Source: Nitrosomonas sp. Is35 (GTDB taxonomy: Bacteria; Pseudomonadota; Gammaproteobacteria; Burkholderiales; Nitrosomonadaceae). From it: a DNA stretch of 64,000 nucleotides. Of this stretch, positions 1,926 to 9,442 are shown piece after piece; positions within the stretch are counted from its first letter, which is position 1; each line of letters starts with the position of its first letter. The stretch is from contig NZ_JAWJZH010000001.1 in the NCBI RefSeq assembly GCF_033063295.1, forward strand, positions 682,001-746,000, in the 5' to 3' direction. A program made the translations under genes and the position numbers. The notes beneath the pieces are model-generated. The model saw nothing but the letters and a program-made list of their open reading frames with translations, was not told where the DNA came from and did not search any database.

Positions 1926-2615
1926 TCACCGCGCGAATGTTTTCAGCAGAACCGTGCTTTCCTCCAAGCGGCTGACTCCGCGCTCCCGGAAACGCGGATT
2001 TTGTGCCAGCACATTGTGCTGCGACAGCAGGGTAATTCCGGCATGCGCCCGGAACAGCGTGGTTACTTCATGCAAGGATACCGCAAAGGGCGGGCCGTTC
2101 ATTTCATACTGCGGATAGTCGAGTGTGATGAGCAGGATTTGCGTATTTGCCGGAACAATCCGCAGAAGATGCTCCACATAACGTTTACGCAGATCGGGCG
2201 GTAACGCGATGAACGCGGCGCGGTCGTATACGGCGCTGACATTGCACATGTCTTCTGTACTCAGATCGAAAAAATCGCCGCACAAAATAGCGATATCATC
2301 CGCTTCCCAGCGCGTGAAGCGGCCATGCGCATGGCTCTGGGCTGTCAAAGCGTTTTCGCTGAAAAATGCCTGCGCCGCCGTGGCGCTTAACTCGACACCC
2401 CGCACCGCATGTCCCTGTTGACGCAGCCACAGCATATCCTGACTCTTGCCGCACAGCGGCACGAAGACGGTACTGTCACGACTCAATTGCAACGTGTGCC
2501 AGAACTCAAGCAAATACGGATTGGTCCCGTTCTGATGAAAACCGGTGTCATTCCGCTCCCACCGTTCCAGCCAATATGTTTTTCTGCTGTGTTCTTGCGG
2601 ATTATCGTCAATCAT
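1926..2615 (-). CDS. tpm: Thiopurine S-methyltransferase family SAM-dependent methyltransferase
   Basis: This 229-residue protein has TPMT family features: an N-terminal [15 protein letters not shown] stretch, the SAM-binding [14 protein letters not shown] segment and a later [12 protein letters not shown] segment. Family members transfer methyl groups from SAM to thiopurines and, in some bacteria, to selenium or tellurium compounds. The natural substrate is usually unknown. I chose the ATG at 2615 because it overlaps the carboxylase stop as ATGA, a translational-coupling arrangement, although the frame extends 21 codons further upstream. It is the last gene of the riboswitch-led operon. A link to guanidine catabolism is only suggested by position. 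Confidence 0.85.
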
Positions 2616-5600
2616 GGCGCAGTCTTCTTCAGTGCGGCGAGCAATTGCCCGGCGGAGACACCATCCCCCTGGCGGCACAGAATGCGTTCGACGGTGCCGC
2701 TGAGCGGAGCTTCCACGGCAATTTCCATTTTCATCGCTTCGATGACGATCAACACATCACCAGCCTTAACCTGCTGGCCTTCCTGGGCCAGTATTTTCCA
2801 CACGGTGCCGGTGACTGGCGAGGCGATGGCGTGACTGCCCTCGGGTAAATCCAGCTCGCTTTGCGCATCGGCTTCGTCGAGATCCGATTCGCTGGCGAAC
2901 TCCATTTGCCCGTTGATGCTCCAGCGCTCGCGCTCGGCTTCAAAGGCGGCTTGCTGCCGGGTTTTGAAGTCATGGATTGCCGCTTGGTTTTGTTGCAGAA
3001 ACAGGTGATGTTGCTGCAAACTGAACGTGGTTTCTTCAACGCGCAGTTGAAATTGCCCGCGGATAAAATCCTTGCGCAGTTTCAGCAGCTCGCTTTCGCT
3101 GACCGGATAAAAACGGATCTGGTCGAAGAAACGCAGCAGCCAAGGTTTGCCATCTTTAAAGTCGGCGGTTTGACGGTAGCGGTTCCACACTGGCAGCGTG
3201 CGTCCGACGAATTGATAACCGCCCGGGCCTTCCATGCCGTAAATGCACAAATACGCGCCGCCGATACCCACGGCATTTTCCGGCGTCCAGGTGCGCGCCG
3301 GATTGTACTTGGTGGTGACCAGGCGATGCCGCGGATCGGCCGGTATCGCGACCGGCGCGCCCAAATACACATCGCCCAAGCCTAGAATCAAGTAACTGGC
3401 GTCAAACACGATCCGATGCACCGCTTCGATACTATCCAGTCCATTGATACGGCGGATGAATTCGATATTGCTCGGACACCACGGCGCATCGTTGCGCACC
3501 GATTGCATGTATTTCTCGATCGCCAAGCGTGTCGCCGCATCGTCCCAAGATAGCGGCAGGTGCACAATACGCGATGGCACCGACATGCTGGCGCTGTCCG
3601 GCAGCGATTGTTCCGCGGCGAGCAAGGTTTGCAGCAGGCTGTCGCGCGGCAGAATTTGCGCGTCGAAATGAATTTGCAGCGAACGGATTCCCGGCGTCAG
3701 ATCGATAATGCCGGGCAAATTGGCGTGTTGCAGCCATTCCATCAAGGCATGCGCGCGAAAACGCAAATCCAGATCGAGCACCATCGGGCCATATTCCACC
3801 AGCAAGTTACGATCGCCGGATTGGCGGTACGTCACTGCCATTTGCTGCGGGCTTTCCGCGATCTGATGCAGAATCGGGCTCGGCAACGTTGCAATCGCAC
3901 CGCTGGATGCTAATGCGGGCGGCGAACGCAACAACCGGATCGATTCGTTCTGCTGTTTTTCCAGCGTTTGTGCTTGTTCCATGGTCAGCGGGCGGAAACG
4001 GATCTGGTCGCCCGGTCTGAGTTGTCCGACCTTCCATAATTCAGCATGAGCCACGGTTACGGGACAAACGAAACCGCCCAGACTCGGGCCGTCCGGCCCC
4101 AGAATGATCGGCATGTCGCCGGTAAAATCGACCGCGCCGATGGCGTACGCCGTATCGTGAATATTAGACGGATGCAAACCGGCCTCGCCGCCGTCGCTAC
4201 GCGCCCACTGCGGTTTCGGGCCGAGCAAGCGCACACCGGTGCGGCTGGAATTGTGATGCACTTTCCAATCCGTGTTGAAGAACGTTTCAATATCCGCATC
4301 AGTGAAAAAATCGGGCGCGGCGTGCGGGCCGTACAACACACCGATTTCCCATTGATGCGTGTAGCAAGGGATCAATTCCGCTGCCAGCACGGTTTGCGCC
4401 GGTTCATATTCCGCCGCGATGTGCAGCACATCGCCCGCCCGCAGCGCACGCCCGGCATGGCCGCCGAATTGCCCTAGCGTGAAAGTCGATTTGCTGCCCA
4501 GATAATCCGGGACTTGAAATCCGCCTTGCATCGCGAGGTATGCCCGGCAACCCTGATTCTTGATCTTGCCGAATTGCAGAATGGCTCCGGCTTTGATTTC
4601 GTGCGATTGCCATAAGGGCAGCGGCTCGCTGTCCAGATAGACTTCGATCGTTGCGCCGGTCACGGCGATGAGGCAATCGCTGTTGAAACGCAACGTTGGG
4701 CCGGTCAATGTGATTTCCAGCGCTGCTTTGTCTGTGGAATTATTAACCAGCCGGTTGGCCAAGCGGAAAGCGAGCGCATCCATCGGCCCGGAGGGCGGCA
4801 CACCGATTTGCCAGTAGCCGAGCCGTCCGGGGTAATCCTGCACAGTGGTTTGCACGCCAGGGACTAAAACGTCCAAGGTATGCGCGCGATAGTGAAATCC
4901 ATTGAGAAAGCCGGTGGTGTATTGCCCGTTGCGAAATTGCACGCTGCCGAGAATTTGCTGCAAGTAATCCAGATTGGTTTCGATGCCTTGCAACGAACTG
5001 CTTTCCAATGCAGCCTGCAACCGTGCGATGGCTTTTTCCCGGTCCGGCGCGTGCACAATGATCTTCGCCAGCATCGGATCGTAAAACGCGGATACATCGA
5101 TGCCGCGCTCGACCCAGGTTTCAACGCGCGCCGCTGCGGGAAATTCCGCCGCCGTGAGTGTGCCGCTGGAAGGTTGAAAGTCTTTGGCCGGATTTTCGGC
5201 GTAAACCCGCGCCTGAATCGATACGCCACGGGGTTCGATGGTGAAGGAATCGAGCGGCGGCAAATCGCCCGCAGCTTGCCGTACCATCCATTCCACCAGG
5301 TCAATGCCGGTCACTTCCTCGGTCACGCCATGTTCCACCTGCAAGCGCGTGTTGACCTCGAGAAAATAGAATTGGCCATTGGCGGCGTCAAAAATATATT
5401 CCACCGTGCCAGCGGATTGATAATTGACCGCTTTGCCGAGACGCACCGCCGTGTCCAGCAATGCTTGGCGCAGTGGCGGTGCGAGATGGGGCGCGGGTGT
5501 TTCCTCGATGACTTTCTGGTTGCGCCGTTGCATGGAACAGTCGCGTTCGCCCAATGCGACGACTTGGCCGTTACCGTCGCCGAAGATTTGTACTTCGATG

Positions 5601-6220
5601 TGGCGTGCCTGATCGACAAATTTTTCCAGAAACAAACCGGCATCCTTGAAATTATTTTGCGCGAGATTCTTGACCGATTCATAAGCACCGCTCAGTTCAT
5701 CCTGGTTCCAGCACAAACGCATGCCGATACCGCCGCCACCGGCGGTGCTTTTCAGCATCACCGGATAGCCGATGTGCTTGGCTTGATGGCAGGCGTCGTC
5801 GAGATTCGCCAGCAAACCGGTGCCAGGCAGCAGCGGTACCTGATTTTCGAGCGCCAGCGCACGGGCTGTGTGTTTCAGGCCGAACGCGCGCATTTGCTGC
5901 GGTGTCGGACCGATGAAACAAATGCCGTGCGCCGCGCATTGCCCGGCAAAATCGGCGTTTTCGCTGAGAAACCCGTAACCGGGATGAATGGCCTGCGCGC
6001 CGGATTGCTGCGCGATGGCCAGGATCTTATCGGTGCGCAGGTAACTGTCGGCCGCGATACCGTCACCGATGCAATAAGCTTCATCGGCCTCATTGACATG
6101 CCGCGATAATGCATCGGCTTCGGTGTATACCGCGATGCTGGTGACGTTCATGCGGCGCAGCGTGCGGATGATGCGGCAAGCAATGGCGCCACGGTTGGCG
6201 ATGAGCACTTTATTGAACAT
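2612..6220 (-). CDS. uca: Biotin-dependent guanidine/urea carboxylase
   Basis: The 1,202-residue protein has the full urea carboxylase layout. A biotin carboxylase domain covers about residues 1-450 (starting [16 protein letters not shown]). A carboxyltransferase region follows, with the KipA/AHS2-like part from about 455 ([18 protein letters not shown]) and the KipI/AHS1-like part around 800-1000 ([13 protein letters not shown]). The C-terminal biotin carrier domain has EAMKMEI, with the biotinyl lysine at about 1164. The family carboxylates urea to allophanate or guanidine to carboxyguanidine using ATP and bicarbonate. Two DUF1989 genes and a guanidine-I riboswitch upstream point to guanidine as the substrate here. 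No allophanate hydrolase domain is fused to it, and none lies nearby. Confidence 0.95.
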
Positions 6221-6247
6221 ACGATCCTCCGGAATCTGAAACTGACG

Positions 6248-6907
6248 TTAATCCCAAATCAGTAAACGTATCGGTGTCGGATTATAGGCATTGCACGGAT
6301 TGTTCAGCTGCGGACAATTCGAGATCAATACCACGACATCCATTTCCGCGCGCATTTCGACATACTTGCCGGGGGCCGAAACACCATCGGCAAACTCCAA
6401 TTCGCCCGTTTCCGTGACCGGCACGTTCATGAAGAAGTTGATGTTGCTGGGCAGGTCGCGTTTACTCATGCCCAATTGCTGGCACAGCGGATCATGCGCC
6501 AGGGCGTGCAGAAAATTGTCGCGACAACTGTGCATCGGTAATTTTTCCAAGGCATAGCGCACGGTGTTGCTTTCCGCCGCGCAAGCGCCGCCCAATGTGT
6601 CGTGCCGCCCGCAGGTATCGGCGGTGATGGTCAGCATGACATTGCCGGAATTGGAATACAGCTTGCTGCCGGAAGTCAGGTATAGTTTATTCTGTCGGCT
6701 GACGGTATCGGTTGCGCTGTAGCGTTCTTGCGCGTCGTGCGCGTTATAGAACAGCGTGTCGACCGCTTGGTTGCCTTCTAGATCGACAATACGGAAGGTT
6801 TGTCCGTGTTTGATTCCTTTGACCCACGGTTCACCGGCCGGGCAGATTTCATTGATCACCGCATGGCTGGGATCGAGATGGCTTACAAATAGAGTAGAGG
6901 TATTCAT
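6248..6907 (-). CDS. cgdB: DUF1989 protein, probable carboxyguanidine deiminase subunit (urea carboxylase-associated protein 2)
   Basis: This 219-residue DUF1989 protein belongs to the family long annotated as urea carboxylase-associated protein. Members of this pair have been shown in other bacteria to form a carboxyguanidine deiminase that converts carboxyguanidine to allophanate and ammonia. Typical features are [16 protein letters not shown] near the N-terminus, [17 protein letters not shown] with conserved Cys and His, and [10 protein letters not shown]. Its start overlaps the stop of the preceding DUF1989 gene by four bases, and it ends 27 bases before the carboxylase. Which of the two genes should be called A or B is by order only. 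Confidence 0.87.
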
Positions 6908-7629
6908 TTTTCACCCTCGCAATAAAAGTGTTGCGCGTTCTGCAGTGCGCGGATATTTTCGGCGATATGCAGGCATTCGTTGGTTGCATCCGCTGGCGTA
7001 TCAAACAGTTCCAGATTGACCGCGCCGGGCTGATACGGCTTTCCCGGATCGAGCGGATGCGGTGCGGCGGACAATATCATCAAGGTATTCATGACAAAAC
7101 TGAGGTCGACATAATCGCCCGCTTTGCTGTGATTGACGTGATATTGAAGTTCTCCCATGTGATCGGCGGTCACTTTGCTGAAAAAATTGATGTTGGCGAC
7201 GACATCGCGCATGCCCAGCCCCCATTTCCCCAGTTCGATCAGCATGCCGTCCAGGCCGCTGCGGAACATTTGATTACGGTGCTCCTGATAACGTGCGGTG
7301 CCGTATTTTTGCTGGATCAGATTGGCATCGCTCAAGCCGCATACGGTGTCGTTCCAACCGGCGGTATCGGCTGTGATGCAACAAAATATCCGTCCCATAT
7401 CGGAATGGCACGCATGGCCTTTGGTGAGGCGGAAAGTATGCTGCGATTTCAGGGTGTCGGCCATGTTGTAGCGCTCCAGCTTTTCTTCCTGATTGAAGAA
7501 TAGCACAGCAGCATTCGCGCCTCCGCTGACATCGGTGAGACGCAGCGTGGTGCCGCGCCGTAGTACCCCGGACCAATGGCATCCGCCTGGAATGAGTTGT
7601 TGCCAGATGGGTTTATTGTGTTGATTCAT
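6904..7629 (-). CDS. cgdA: DUF1989 protein, probable carboxyguanidine deiminase subunit (urea carboxylase-associated protein 1)
   Basis: This is the second DUF1989 protein of the operon, 241 residues. It shares the pattern of its neighbour: [15 protein letters not shown] with conserved Cys, [11 protein letters not shown], and [23 protein letters not shown]. It is paralogous to the next gene, consistent with a two-subunit enzyme. Family knowledge places it as the partner subunit of carboxyguanidine deiminase, acting between the guanidine carboxylase and allophanate hydrolase steps. It starts 13 bases after the permease stop and overlaps the next gene by ATGA, so the three genes are almost certainly cotranscribed. 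Confidence 0.87.
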
Positions 7630-7642
7630 GATGAATTCCTCA

Positions 7643-9091
7643 TTAAAAATGGGTTGACTTGCTGGGCATCCATTTTTTGCACAGGATGTACAGTGTGGTG
7701 CAAGTTAAAATACATCCCAGTACCAGCGGCGTCGCCCATAACTGCCACCACGGCGCATCCGCGGAGATGGCATAAGGGCGCGGCCAGGCGATGTTGATGA
7801 GCTCAAACAATGACCAGATGAATGCCAGAATATTGATGACTAATCCCCATGCACCCAGTTTTAATTCGCCCAGCGCGGGATTCCACCGCCCTGTGAGCCG
7901 GGCAAACAAGGCAAAGCCGGTGGTGAACGTGAACATGGCGTATAAACCGCCGGTACCGAACGCGATGATAGTGGCCACGGCATCGTCATTGAGTCCGAAG
8001 ATCAATCCGCAACCCGCCAGAAGAACGGTAAAGAGAATCGCATTGCGTGGCGTTTTGCTCACCGTGACTTGACTCAATACCGCTGGCATATTGCCTTCGC
8101 GCGCCATGGAAAAAACAATGCGCGAGGTGTATTTGACCATGGACGCGCCGCAGGCCAGGAAAGCCGTCATCACGATGGCCAGAAACGGTTTTTCAAACCA
8201 ATCGCCGATGCTGCTGGCTATCAAGGGAGTGACCGGATCGGCGGTATGGCTGGAATTTCTCAAGGTGTCGTGTTCAAAGGCCAGAATCAGCGCGGCTGAA
8301 TTGAACAAAACGACTGTGCCGACGACGAGTAGCGACATGAAAATGGCACGGGGCACCATGCGTTTCGGTTGATGCGTTTCTTCCGCTGTGGTGGAGCAGG
8401 CGTCAAAACCGATGAAAGCCCAACCGGCAATGGCCAACGCGGCCAGAAAAGCAGCCATTTCGCTGGGGGCTGTGCCGGTGCCCATGTGCTGGAACAATTC
8501 CAAGACAGGATGCTGGCGGAAGAAAAAAAATAATAGCAGCGCTACGCCGAATGACCCGGCGACTTCCGCGTAAACACCCAGTTTGATCACCAGATTGAAA
8601 ATACTGACCGGAGCCAAATTGAGGAATGTGCAAAGCAGCAGAAAAAGAGCACCCCACAGCACCATCAAACCGCCGCCAGTACCGGGCGATCCGCAAAAAG
8701 TGGCGAGCCAGAAGCCGCCGGTATACGCGGTCGTGGTGACCATGGCGATGGTGGAGCAAATATAAATCACACCGGCATATTGCCCGGCGATCGCGCCGCC
8801 GAGTTGCCGTGCCCATTTATAGGCGCCACCGGCAATCGGGAATTGTGATGACAGCTCCGCGTAAACAGTCGCCACCAGTAACTGCATGAGCAAGCAAACC
8901 GCCAGCGCTACAAACCAGCCGCCACCGGCGACCACCGTTTGCACACCGATGATGGCATACAGTCCGGCCACCGGTGAGACCACCGCGAAACCGAGCGTGA
9001 AACTGTGCCATACACTCATGCTGCGGCTAAGCGTATCGCTTGTCACAGGGGCATTTTGCGCAGCAGAGATTTGTTTTGTTGAACCTGACAT
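7643..9091 (-). CDS. APC superfamily permease, probable guanidine (or urea-compound) importer
   Basis: The 482-residue polytopic protein has about 12 hydrophobic segments and an amino acid-polyamine-organocation fold: SPVAGLYAIIG at the first helix, QFPIAGGAYKWARQLGG, then GWAFIGFDACSTTAEETHQPKRMVPRA. This subfamily is found with urea/guanidine carboxylase operons. I chose the ATG at 9091 because GGAGA lies seven bases upstream. An in-frame start at 9145 would begin inside the riboswitch leader. As first gene after the guanidine-I riboswitch it is the likely uptake system for the operon's substrate. Substrate specificity is inferred, not shown. Confidence 0.88.
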   Translation of the reverse strand: MSGSTKQISAAQNAPVTSDTLSRSMSVWHSFTLGFAVVSPVAGLYAIIGVQTVVAGGGWFVALAVCLLMQLLVATVYAELSSQFPIAGGAYKWARQLGGAIAGQYAGVIYICSTIAMVTTTAYTGGFWLATFCGSPGTGGGLMVLWGALFLLLCTFLNLAPVSIFNLVIKLGVYAEVAGSFGVALLLFFFFRQHPVLELFQHMGTGTAPSEMAAFLAALAIAGWAFIGFDACSTTAEETHQPKRMVPRAIFMSLLVVGTVVLFNSAALILAFEHDTLRNSSHTADPVTPLIASSIGDWFEKPFLAIVMTAFLACGASMVKYTSRIVFSMAREGNMPAVLSQVTVSKTPRNAILFTVLLAGCGLIFGLNDDAVATIIAFGTGGLYAMFTFTTGFALFARLTGRWNPALGELKLGAWGLVINILAFIWSLFELINIAWPRPYAISADAPWWQLWATPLVLGCILTCTTLYILCKKWMPSKSTHF

Positions 9092-9125
9092 AACCAGTCT
9101 CCATACCAAAGGGTTTTCCGGGATT

Positions 9126-9148
9126 GTAATGTACTTCGAGCACATTAC
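9126..9148 (-). promoter_or_regulatory. Hairpin between riboswitch aptamer and permease start, possible expression platform
   Basis: In the transcript a nine-pair stem (GUAAUGUGC with GUACAUUAC) encloses a UCGAA loop. It is flanked by CCGG/AAUC segments that could pair with the 3' CCGGGAGAUU of the aptamer (about 9152-9163), so this outer helix would compete with the aptamer fold. No U-tract follows, so a simple intrinsic terminator is not evident. Control could act on translation or through Rho. The stem is plain in the sequence; its switching role is inference. Confidence 0.5.
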
Positions 9149-9152
9149 GCTT

Positions 9153-9256
9153 AATCTCCCGGGCTTTTATCCCTCCGTGGAGCCTCGTTATCACGAGACC
9201 GGAAACTCTTGGACCTGACGCCGTTAACTGAACCGGCCGGAACCCTAGTTTCCCAT
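9153..9256 (-). promoter_or_regulatory. Guanidine-I riboswitch (ykkC class, subtype 1)
   Basis: On the minus strand the leader carries, in the right order, the conserved blocks of the ykkC/guanidine-I aptamer: CTAGGGTTCCGG (9237-9248), AGGTCCAAGAG (9206-9216), a CTCGT-gata-ACGAG hairpin, and ACGGAGGGATAAAAGCCC followed by GGGAGA (9155-9178). This class binds free guanidinium and turns genes on. It lies 62 bases before the permease start, so it should control the whole permease-DUF1989-DUF1989-carboxylase-methyltransferase operon. This is the strongest evidence that the operon handles guanidine. Confidence 0.93.
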
Positions 9257-9442
9257 TGCGCTACCGCTTTTTGAGTTGCTATGCCGCCAATCGTTCAATG
9301 GGCATTTTAGAAAGCGAATAACGGGTGGCATTTTAAGTTTGAATTTTGGAAAAAGCAATGGTTTTGGAGATTGAATTATTGCTTGTTTTGATATGTAAAT
9401 TGCAGAACTGGATTCCAGCGTCTTGTTGTTTTCATTCTGTAT

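Follow-up and report, generated by a model that had tools for sequence, protein, structure and literature searches.

What does an operon annotated for urea breakdown do in an ammonia-oxidising bacterium when a guanidine riboswitch precedes it and the enzyme for the last step appears to be missing? The operon lies on the minus strand of a 64,000-nucleotide stretch of Nitrosomonas sp. Is35 (contig NZ_JAWJZH010000001.1, positions 682,001 to 746,000; hereafter the window, in whose numbering positions are given). The NCBIfam default names of its products read urea carboxylase and urea amidolyase associated proteins, just as a first-pass annotation had anticipated when it proposed that the genes act on guanidine instead. 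We think it probable that guanidine induces this operon and that it encodes a shortened form of the guanidine carboxylase pathway, from which the allophanate hydrolase is missing. The reading is built on the aptamer, the genes, guanidine-type residues in the carboxylase, two enzyme families without a match and purifying selection on what remains, all of which can be read from the sequence.

The first-pass annotation had placed a guanidine-I aptamer in the minus-strand leader of the permease gene, and the covariance model bears it out: RF00442 matches 9259-9154 over its whole length (model positions 1-107 of 107) with 93 bits against a gathering threshold of 63 (E 1.6e-15). This is the sole Rfam match above gathering across the window, and a search of the whole genome with RF00442 returned one match only, the operon leader. 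A response of this aptamer to guanidine is thus predicted from family membership. The minimum free energy (MFE) structure of 9259-9060 contains a hairpin that pairs 9177-9171 with 9113-9107 and 9162-9157 with 9123-9118, occupying the 3' strand of the aptamer (z -2.21; 4 of 200 shuffles fold equally well or better). No U run follows the hairpin and a minus-strand terminator scan lists no terminator-like site there; it is a possible expression platform, compatible with transcriptional and translational control alike.

The genes behind the aptamer are those described at first pass, an APC permease, two DUF1989 proteins and a carboxylase, each recovered by profile matches. TIGR03424 and TIGR03425, the two subunit families of carboxyguanidine deiminase, are each above cut-off in one of the DUF1989 proteins, the pair being therefore a predicted carboxyguanidine deiminase; which protein is CgdA and which CgdB (the labels used below) is our assumption. 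The UAAP2-type gene overlaps the preceding UAAP1-type gene by 4 bases. The carboxylase has the urea-carboxylase-type domain architecture, BC, CT_A_B, CT_C_D and BCCP (TIGR02712, Pfam), and its Asp698 aligns with yeast Asn1330 and Asp950 with Asp1584 (Kluyveromyces lactis urea amidolyase, 5i8i). These two positions have been used to separate guanidine from urea carboxylases (Palatinszky et al., 2024; PMC11410670), and a 2025 review summarises the Asp/Asn rule along with the reinterpretation of 'urea carboxylases' (PMC12186494); the enzyme studied here has Asp at both. Asp698, Asp950 and the biotin Lys1164 are identical in 51/51 aligned members of the genus, and among named strains Nitrosomonas oligotropha Nm45 (97%) and Nm75 (96%) have the closest carboxylases. 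Given the aptamer, Asp698 and the DUF1989 pair, guanidine rather than urea is the likely inducer and substrate, as first proposed.

The host genome (G000; 3.31 Mb, two contigs) scored 100% complete and carries three amoA copies, which identify it as an ammonia oxidiser, as had been assumed, close to N. oligotropha. A complete guanidine carboxylase pathway would include an allophanate hydrolase, and a genome search with TIGR02713 gave no match above the cut-off of 511. The single amidase-signature match in the genome is a 482-aa GatA-like protein with a GatC-sized open reading frame (ORF) upstream; its identity rests on length, on this neighbour and on its 206 bits on the hydrolase model. The same model also matches an ORF that carries only the AH_C domain. 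Urease alpha is absent from the genome matches with two models, PF00449 and TIGR01792, unlike in the nearest relatives, G031 and G041, where urease is matched. We also considered a guanidinase as an alternative route. The genome has one arginase-family match, which the agmatinase model recognises (463 bits, cut-off 302) and whose nearest structure is 4dz4; the call rests on model and structure, and this route was rejected for want of a guanidinase-type ureohydrolase among the matches. Because agmatinase itself yields urea and no urease was matched, urea is probably made but not used in this cell, which would thus already live with urea that it has no urease to split.

In the pathway that we infer, from ligand response and substrate to the fate of allophanate and the purpose of the whole, guanidine would bind the leader aptamer and so permit expression of the operon, and the APC permease would import it. 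The biotin carboxylase would then convert guanidine to carboxyguanidine at the cost of one ATP, and the DUF1989 pair would deiminate carboxyguanidine to allophanate with release of one NH3. Without a hydrolase, allophanate is expected to lose CO2 and give urea. In urease-bearing relatives such as N. oligotropha the urea could yield two further NH3; in this genome and in the N. eutropha type none of the enzymes matched would do this. Here, because no urease was matched, the urea probably leaves the cell. The net result would be one NH3 and urea from guanidine per ATP, that is, one of three nitrogens released by the enzymes found. The proposal that guanidine becomes ammonia, both nitrogen and energy substrate, therefore survives in part: one NH3 is accounted for, while full conversion and use for energy are not, there being no hydrolase or urease among the matches. 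For an ammonia oxidiser, one NH3 per ATP spent would yield little energy, so the pathway more likely serves to detoxify guanidine or to salvage part of its nitrogen.

Is the gap peculiar to this strain? We surveyed G000 together with 60 genomes sampled evenly across Nitrosomonas, 61 in all. The carboxylase is full-length in 51, fragmentary in 6 and unmatched in 4; the guanidine-I aptamer is over cut-off in 54 and urease (PF00449) is matched in 37. Allophanate hydrolase is over cut-off in only 20, one of these truncated by a contig end, and in two of the 20 the only carboxylase match is to biotin carboxylase. Among the 51 genomes with a full-length carboxylase, the hydrolase is over cut-off in 18, split into two frames in 1 and unmatched in 32, and of these last, 20 have urease and 12 do not. 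For the 35 genomes of at least 99% completeness the counts are 13 with the hydrolase, 1 with it split and 21 with none; hydrolase and urease are both lacking in 8. Where the two enzymes occur together, 17/18 genomes have the hydrolase gene immediately after that of the carboxylase; the exception, G052, has it some 100 kb from the carboxylase with a guanidine-I aptamer of its own in front. Ten records reached through named loci were searched whole, and the hydrolase was over cut-off in three; it was not in N. oligotropha Nm75 and Nm45, N. eutropha Nm24 and Nm57, N. halophila Nm1 and two metagenome-assembled genomes (MAGs). By match coordinates Nm75 is G031, Nm45 G041, Nm24 G036 and Nm57 G001; urease is present in both N. 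oligotropha strains and unmatched in both N. eutropha strains.

Among loci from outside the genus, nine (L053, L069, L070, L072, L074, L076, L079, L084, L090) have the hydrolase behind the carboxylase and eight (L073, L078, L080, L081, L082, L085, L089, L092), despite room, do not; linkage of the two is therefore probably, not certainly, the ancestral state. On a carboxylase tree of 51 rows, built by a quick method and with the split hydrolase scored as present, the hydrolase state requires eight changes, six of them forced by starred branches. Loss has left a trace in two genomes: in G022 and G008 the stretch between the carboxylase and the TPMT-family gene still aligns with the opening ~50 bases of the hydrolase gene and, in G008, with the closing ~60 as well. 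The two junctions look identical by eye, and in the close relatives G016 and G020 the hydrolase gene is intact. To judge by these alignments, the residue is the deletion scar of a lost hydrolase gene. In G000 no remnant was matched, the match beginning at the TPMT start; the hydrolase was probably lost in this lineage too.

What remains of the module is intact and under selection. The ratio of nonsynonymous to synonymous divergence (dN/dS) of the carboxylase, in pairs picked by hand, is 0.048-0.124 across 16 pairs that lack the hydrolase and 0.053-0.091 across 9 that have it, and for this genome 0.048 against G031 and 0.075 against G041; by this measure the carboxylase is still under purifying selection. 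Several hydrolase-less clades show long branches in the carboxylase tree, and relaxed selection after the loss was considered and dropped: dN/dS is alike in both groups, and in the comparison of G000 with G020 the neighbouring GGDEF/EAL gene is just as diverged at synonymous sites (1.70 against 1.63). The idea that a gene beside the carboxylase stands in for the hydrolase was set aside as well, the hydrolase-less loci compared sharing genes within clades and no new gene across clades. The TPMT-family methyltransferase was rejected for this role too, because G016 and G020 have it behind an intact hydrolase gene.

Several points weigh against a pathway that stops at urea. The step from allophanate to urea rests on general chemistry, and an unrelated enzyme could hydrolyse allophanate, the family searches notwithstanding. 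Most of the sampled genomes are draft assemblies, in which a missing gene may at times reflect a gap. Nor is absence of the hydrolase associated with presence of urease, which is found in 13/18 hydrolase-bearing and 20/32 hydrolase-less genomes (Fisher p 0.55); a urease bypass as a general rule is unsupported and we dropped it. Finally, an AH_C-only match occurs in 14/32 hydrolase-less genomes with a full carboxylase, G000 included, and a role for it is possible. Such a protein, working with a partner, or else a non-homologous enzyme, would restore the full pathway and turn all three nitrogens into ammonia. We give this a small but real chance: the carboxylase module stays under purifying selection without a hydrolase in several lineages, and stand-alone AH_C matches (17/61 genomes, partial in some) are confined to hydrolase-less genomes, with none in the 20 that have the hydrolase. 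Set against this, the hydrolase-less loci compared have no common new gene downstream of the carboxylase, and AH_C is unmatched in 18/32 and lacks the amidase domain. AH_C ORFs do not lie beside an aptamer, and theirs are several different neighbourhoods: of eight loci read, some have common neighbours and others do not (in L105 our choice of ORFs missed the AH_C frame). In G000 the ORF is flanked by an integrase-like ORF on one side and a DinG-like helicase ORF on the other, both neighbours named by eye, and the nearest solved relative of its product is 5c5z (131.7 bits). With a C-terminal domain only and such varied neighbourhoods, the AH_C protein is unsupported as the missing enzyme.

The remaining explanations are far less probable. 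Complete use of guanidine for nitrogen and energy by the standard pathway, as first proposed, has the aptamer, carboxylase and DUF1989 pair in its favour; it is contradicted by the searches, which found neither hydrolase nor urease in a genome scored as complete, and by the five ammonia-oxidising bacteria (AOB) that were described with a hydrolase and, in the experiments reported, did not use guanidine as sole substrate (PMC11410670). We consider it very unlikely. We place as little weight on an operon decaying without function after hydrolase loss. The hydrolase is indeed missing in several lineages, and the urease that is missing here is matched in the nearest relatives, but the four core genes are open, the aptamer is intact, the key residues are invariant across the genus alignment and the low dN/dS values against those same relatives speak for constraint. 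Least credible of all is a urea carboxylase operon as the default annotation has it: the profile names favour it, but Asp replaces Asn at the specificity position, the aptamer is one for guanidine and no allophanate hydrolase was matched to complete urea degradation. We thus retain the shortened guanidine pathway, and extend it with about even confidence to many Nitrosomonas species, in which the pathway may have been cut repeatedly until it only converts guanidine into urea, as guanidinase does, but driven by ATP; urease-less strains (the N. eutropha type and this genome) would use it to detoxify guanidine while retaining one nitrogen, and the urea would pass to neighbours that have urease.

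Features of the guanidine operon and of the stand-alone AH_C ORF (window positions unless stated otherwise)
Feature	Position	Strand	Basis or remark
Guanidine-I (ykkC) riboswitch aptamer	9154..9259	-	RF00442 covariance model
Leader hairpin, possible expression platform	9107..9177	-	MFE fold of 9259-9060; role inferred
APC-superfamily permease, probable guanidine importer	7643..9145	-	PF13520 116 bits
DUF1989 protein, UAAP1 type (CgdB-like)	6904..7629	-	TIGR03425 320.6 bits, cut-off 206
DUF1989 protein, UAAP2 type (CgdA-like)	6248..6907	-	TIGR03424 347.9 bits, cut-off 285
Guanidine-type biotin carboxylase, 1202 aa	2612..6220	-	TIGR02712 1962 bits, cut-off 1304
TPMT-family methyltransferase, last operon gene	1926..2615	-	PRK13255 283 bits
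AH_C-domain ORF	G000:C1:1776267-1776671 (L099 5205-5684)		Amidase domain absent

Some details of the operon deserve mention. The permease scores 161 bits on TIGR03428, 'permease, urea carboxylase system', under the cut-off of 740. Its longest ORF opens at 9145; because a GGAG at 9102-9099 sits seven bases ahead of the ATG at 9091, the latter is the likelier true start. Against G020 (L108) the permease has a synonymous distance (dS) of 0.53 and the CgdB, CgdA, carboxylase and TPMT genes alongside 1.48-1.71, which suggests a separate exchange of the permease gene. The TPMT gene, whose ATG overlaps the carboxylase stop codon, is a fifth gene outside the interval first annotated (2612..9256); a member of its family is the next same-strand gene after the carboxylase or hydrolase in 10/51 loci of the genus, and its start overlaps the hydrolase stop in G020 and, by coordinates, in G016.

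In 7/61 genomes (G001, G012, G017, G021, G036, G038, G056; loci L109, L115, L121, L122 and L123, with N. eutropha Nm24 and Nm57 in L057 and L061) there is a second, shorter carboxylase copy (~770-800 aa) that lacks the biotin carboxylase domain. In five fetched loci it follows a CgdA-like gene and is divergent from the full-length gene, and the genomes concerned have two aptamer matches each. These five copies, 79-91% alike, retain Asp698, Asp950 and the biotin Lys; to judge by these residues the shorter enzyme looks functional, perhaps charged in trans. In L044, L048, L058 and L059 (Nitrosospira, Nitrosovibrio and a Nitrosomonadaceae) a permease and a carboxylase occur with no DUF1989 pair matched alongside.

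The guanidine reading of AOB operons is already published and is not new here: guanidine genes were reported in 135/145 betaproteobacterial AOB genomes, and the APC permease was noted (Palatinszky et al., 2024; PMC11410670). According to that paper, five AOB, described as having a complete set including allophanate hydrolase and one of them without urease, left 50 uM guanidine unused as sole substrate over two weeks; in the presence of ammonium three of the five converted part of the guanidine, and sole-substrate use is described for a comammox strain only (PMC11410670). N. communis Nm2 is described there with the hydrolase and without urease. We make no claim that the missing hydrolase is new, as the supplementary tables of that work may record hydrolase-less genomes. 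A floodplain study describes nitrifier MAGs without guanidine genes and AOB with allophanate hydrolase beside biuret genes, so that the hydrolase can serve other AOB pathways (PMC12625717). The gap matters for how AOB are counted as potential guanidine users, namely from guanidine gene presence: if 32/51 carboxylase-bearing Nitrosomonas lack the final enzyme, such counts overstate the ammonia to be had from guanidine, and some strains may excrete urea. Named N. eutropha and N. oligotropha strains share the gap, which makes the question testable in culture.

How, then, does the operon compare with known systems? With the guanidine carboxylase pathway of Pseudomonas and enterobacteria it shares the guanidine-type Asp carboxylase, the DUF1989 pair and the guanidine-I aptamer; it differs in having an APC permease in place of an ABC importer and no allophanate hydrolase match. 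The operons of betaproteobacterial AOB are closer, being of the same guild, with the same genes and an APC permease (PMC11410670), and the guanidine genes of Nitrosospira multiformis are placed under a type I guanidine riboswitch (Fig. 1 legend, PMC11410670). In contrast to the five tested strains, described there with the hydrolase, 32 of our 51 genomes with a full-length carboxylase, G000 among them, have none over cut-off. In its predicted products, NH3 and urea, the pathway also resembles the guanidinase (ureohydrolase) route of comammox Nitrospira and Synechocystis; here, however, the arginase-family match scores as an agmatinase, and the same products would be reached by an ATP- and biotin-dependent carboxylation.

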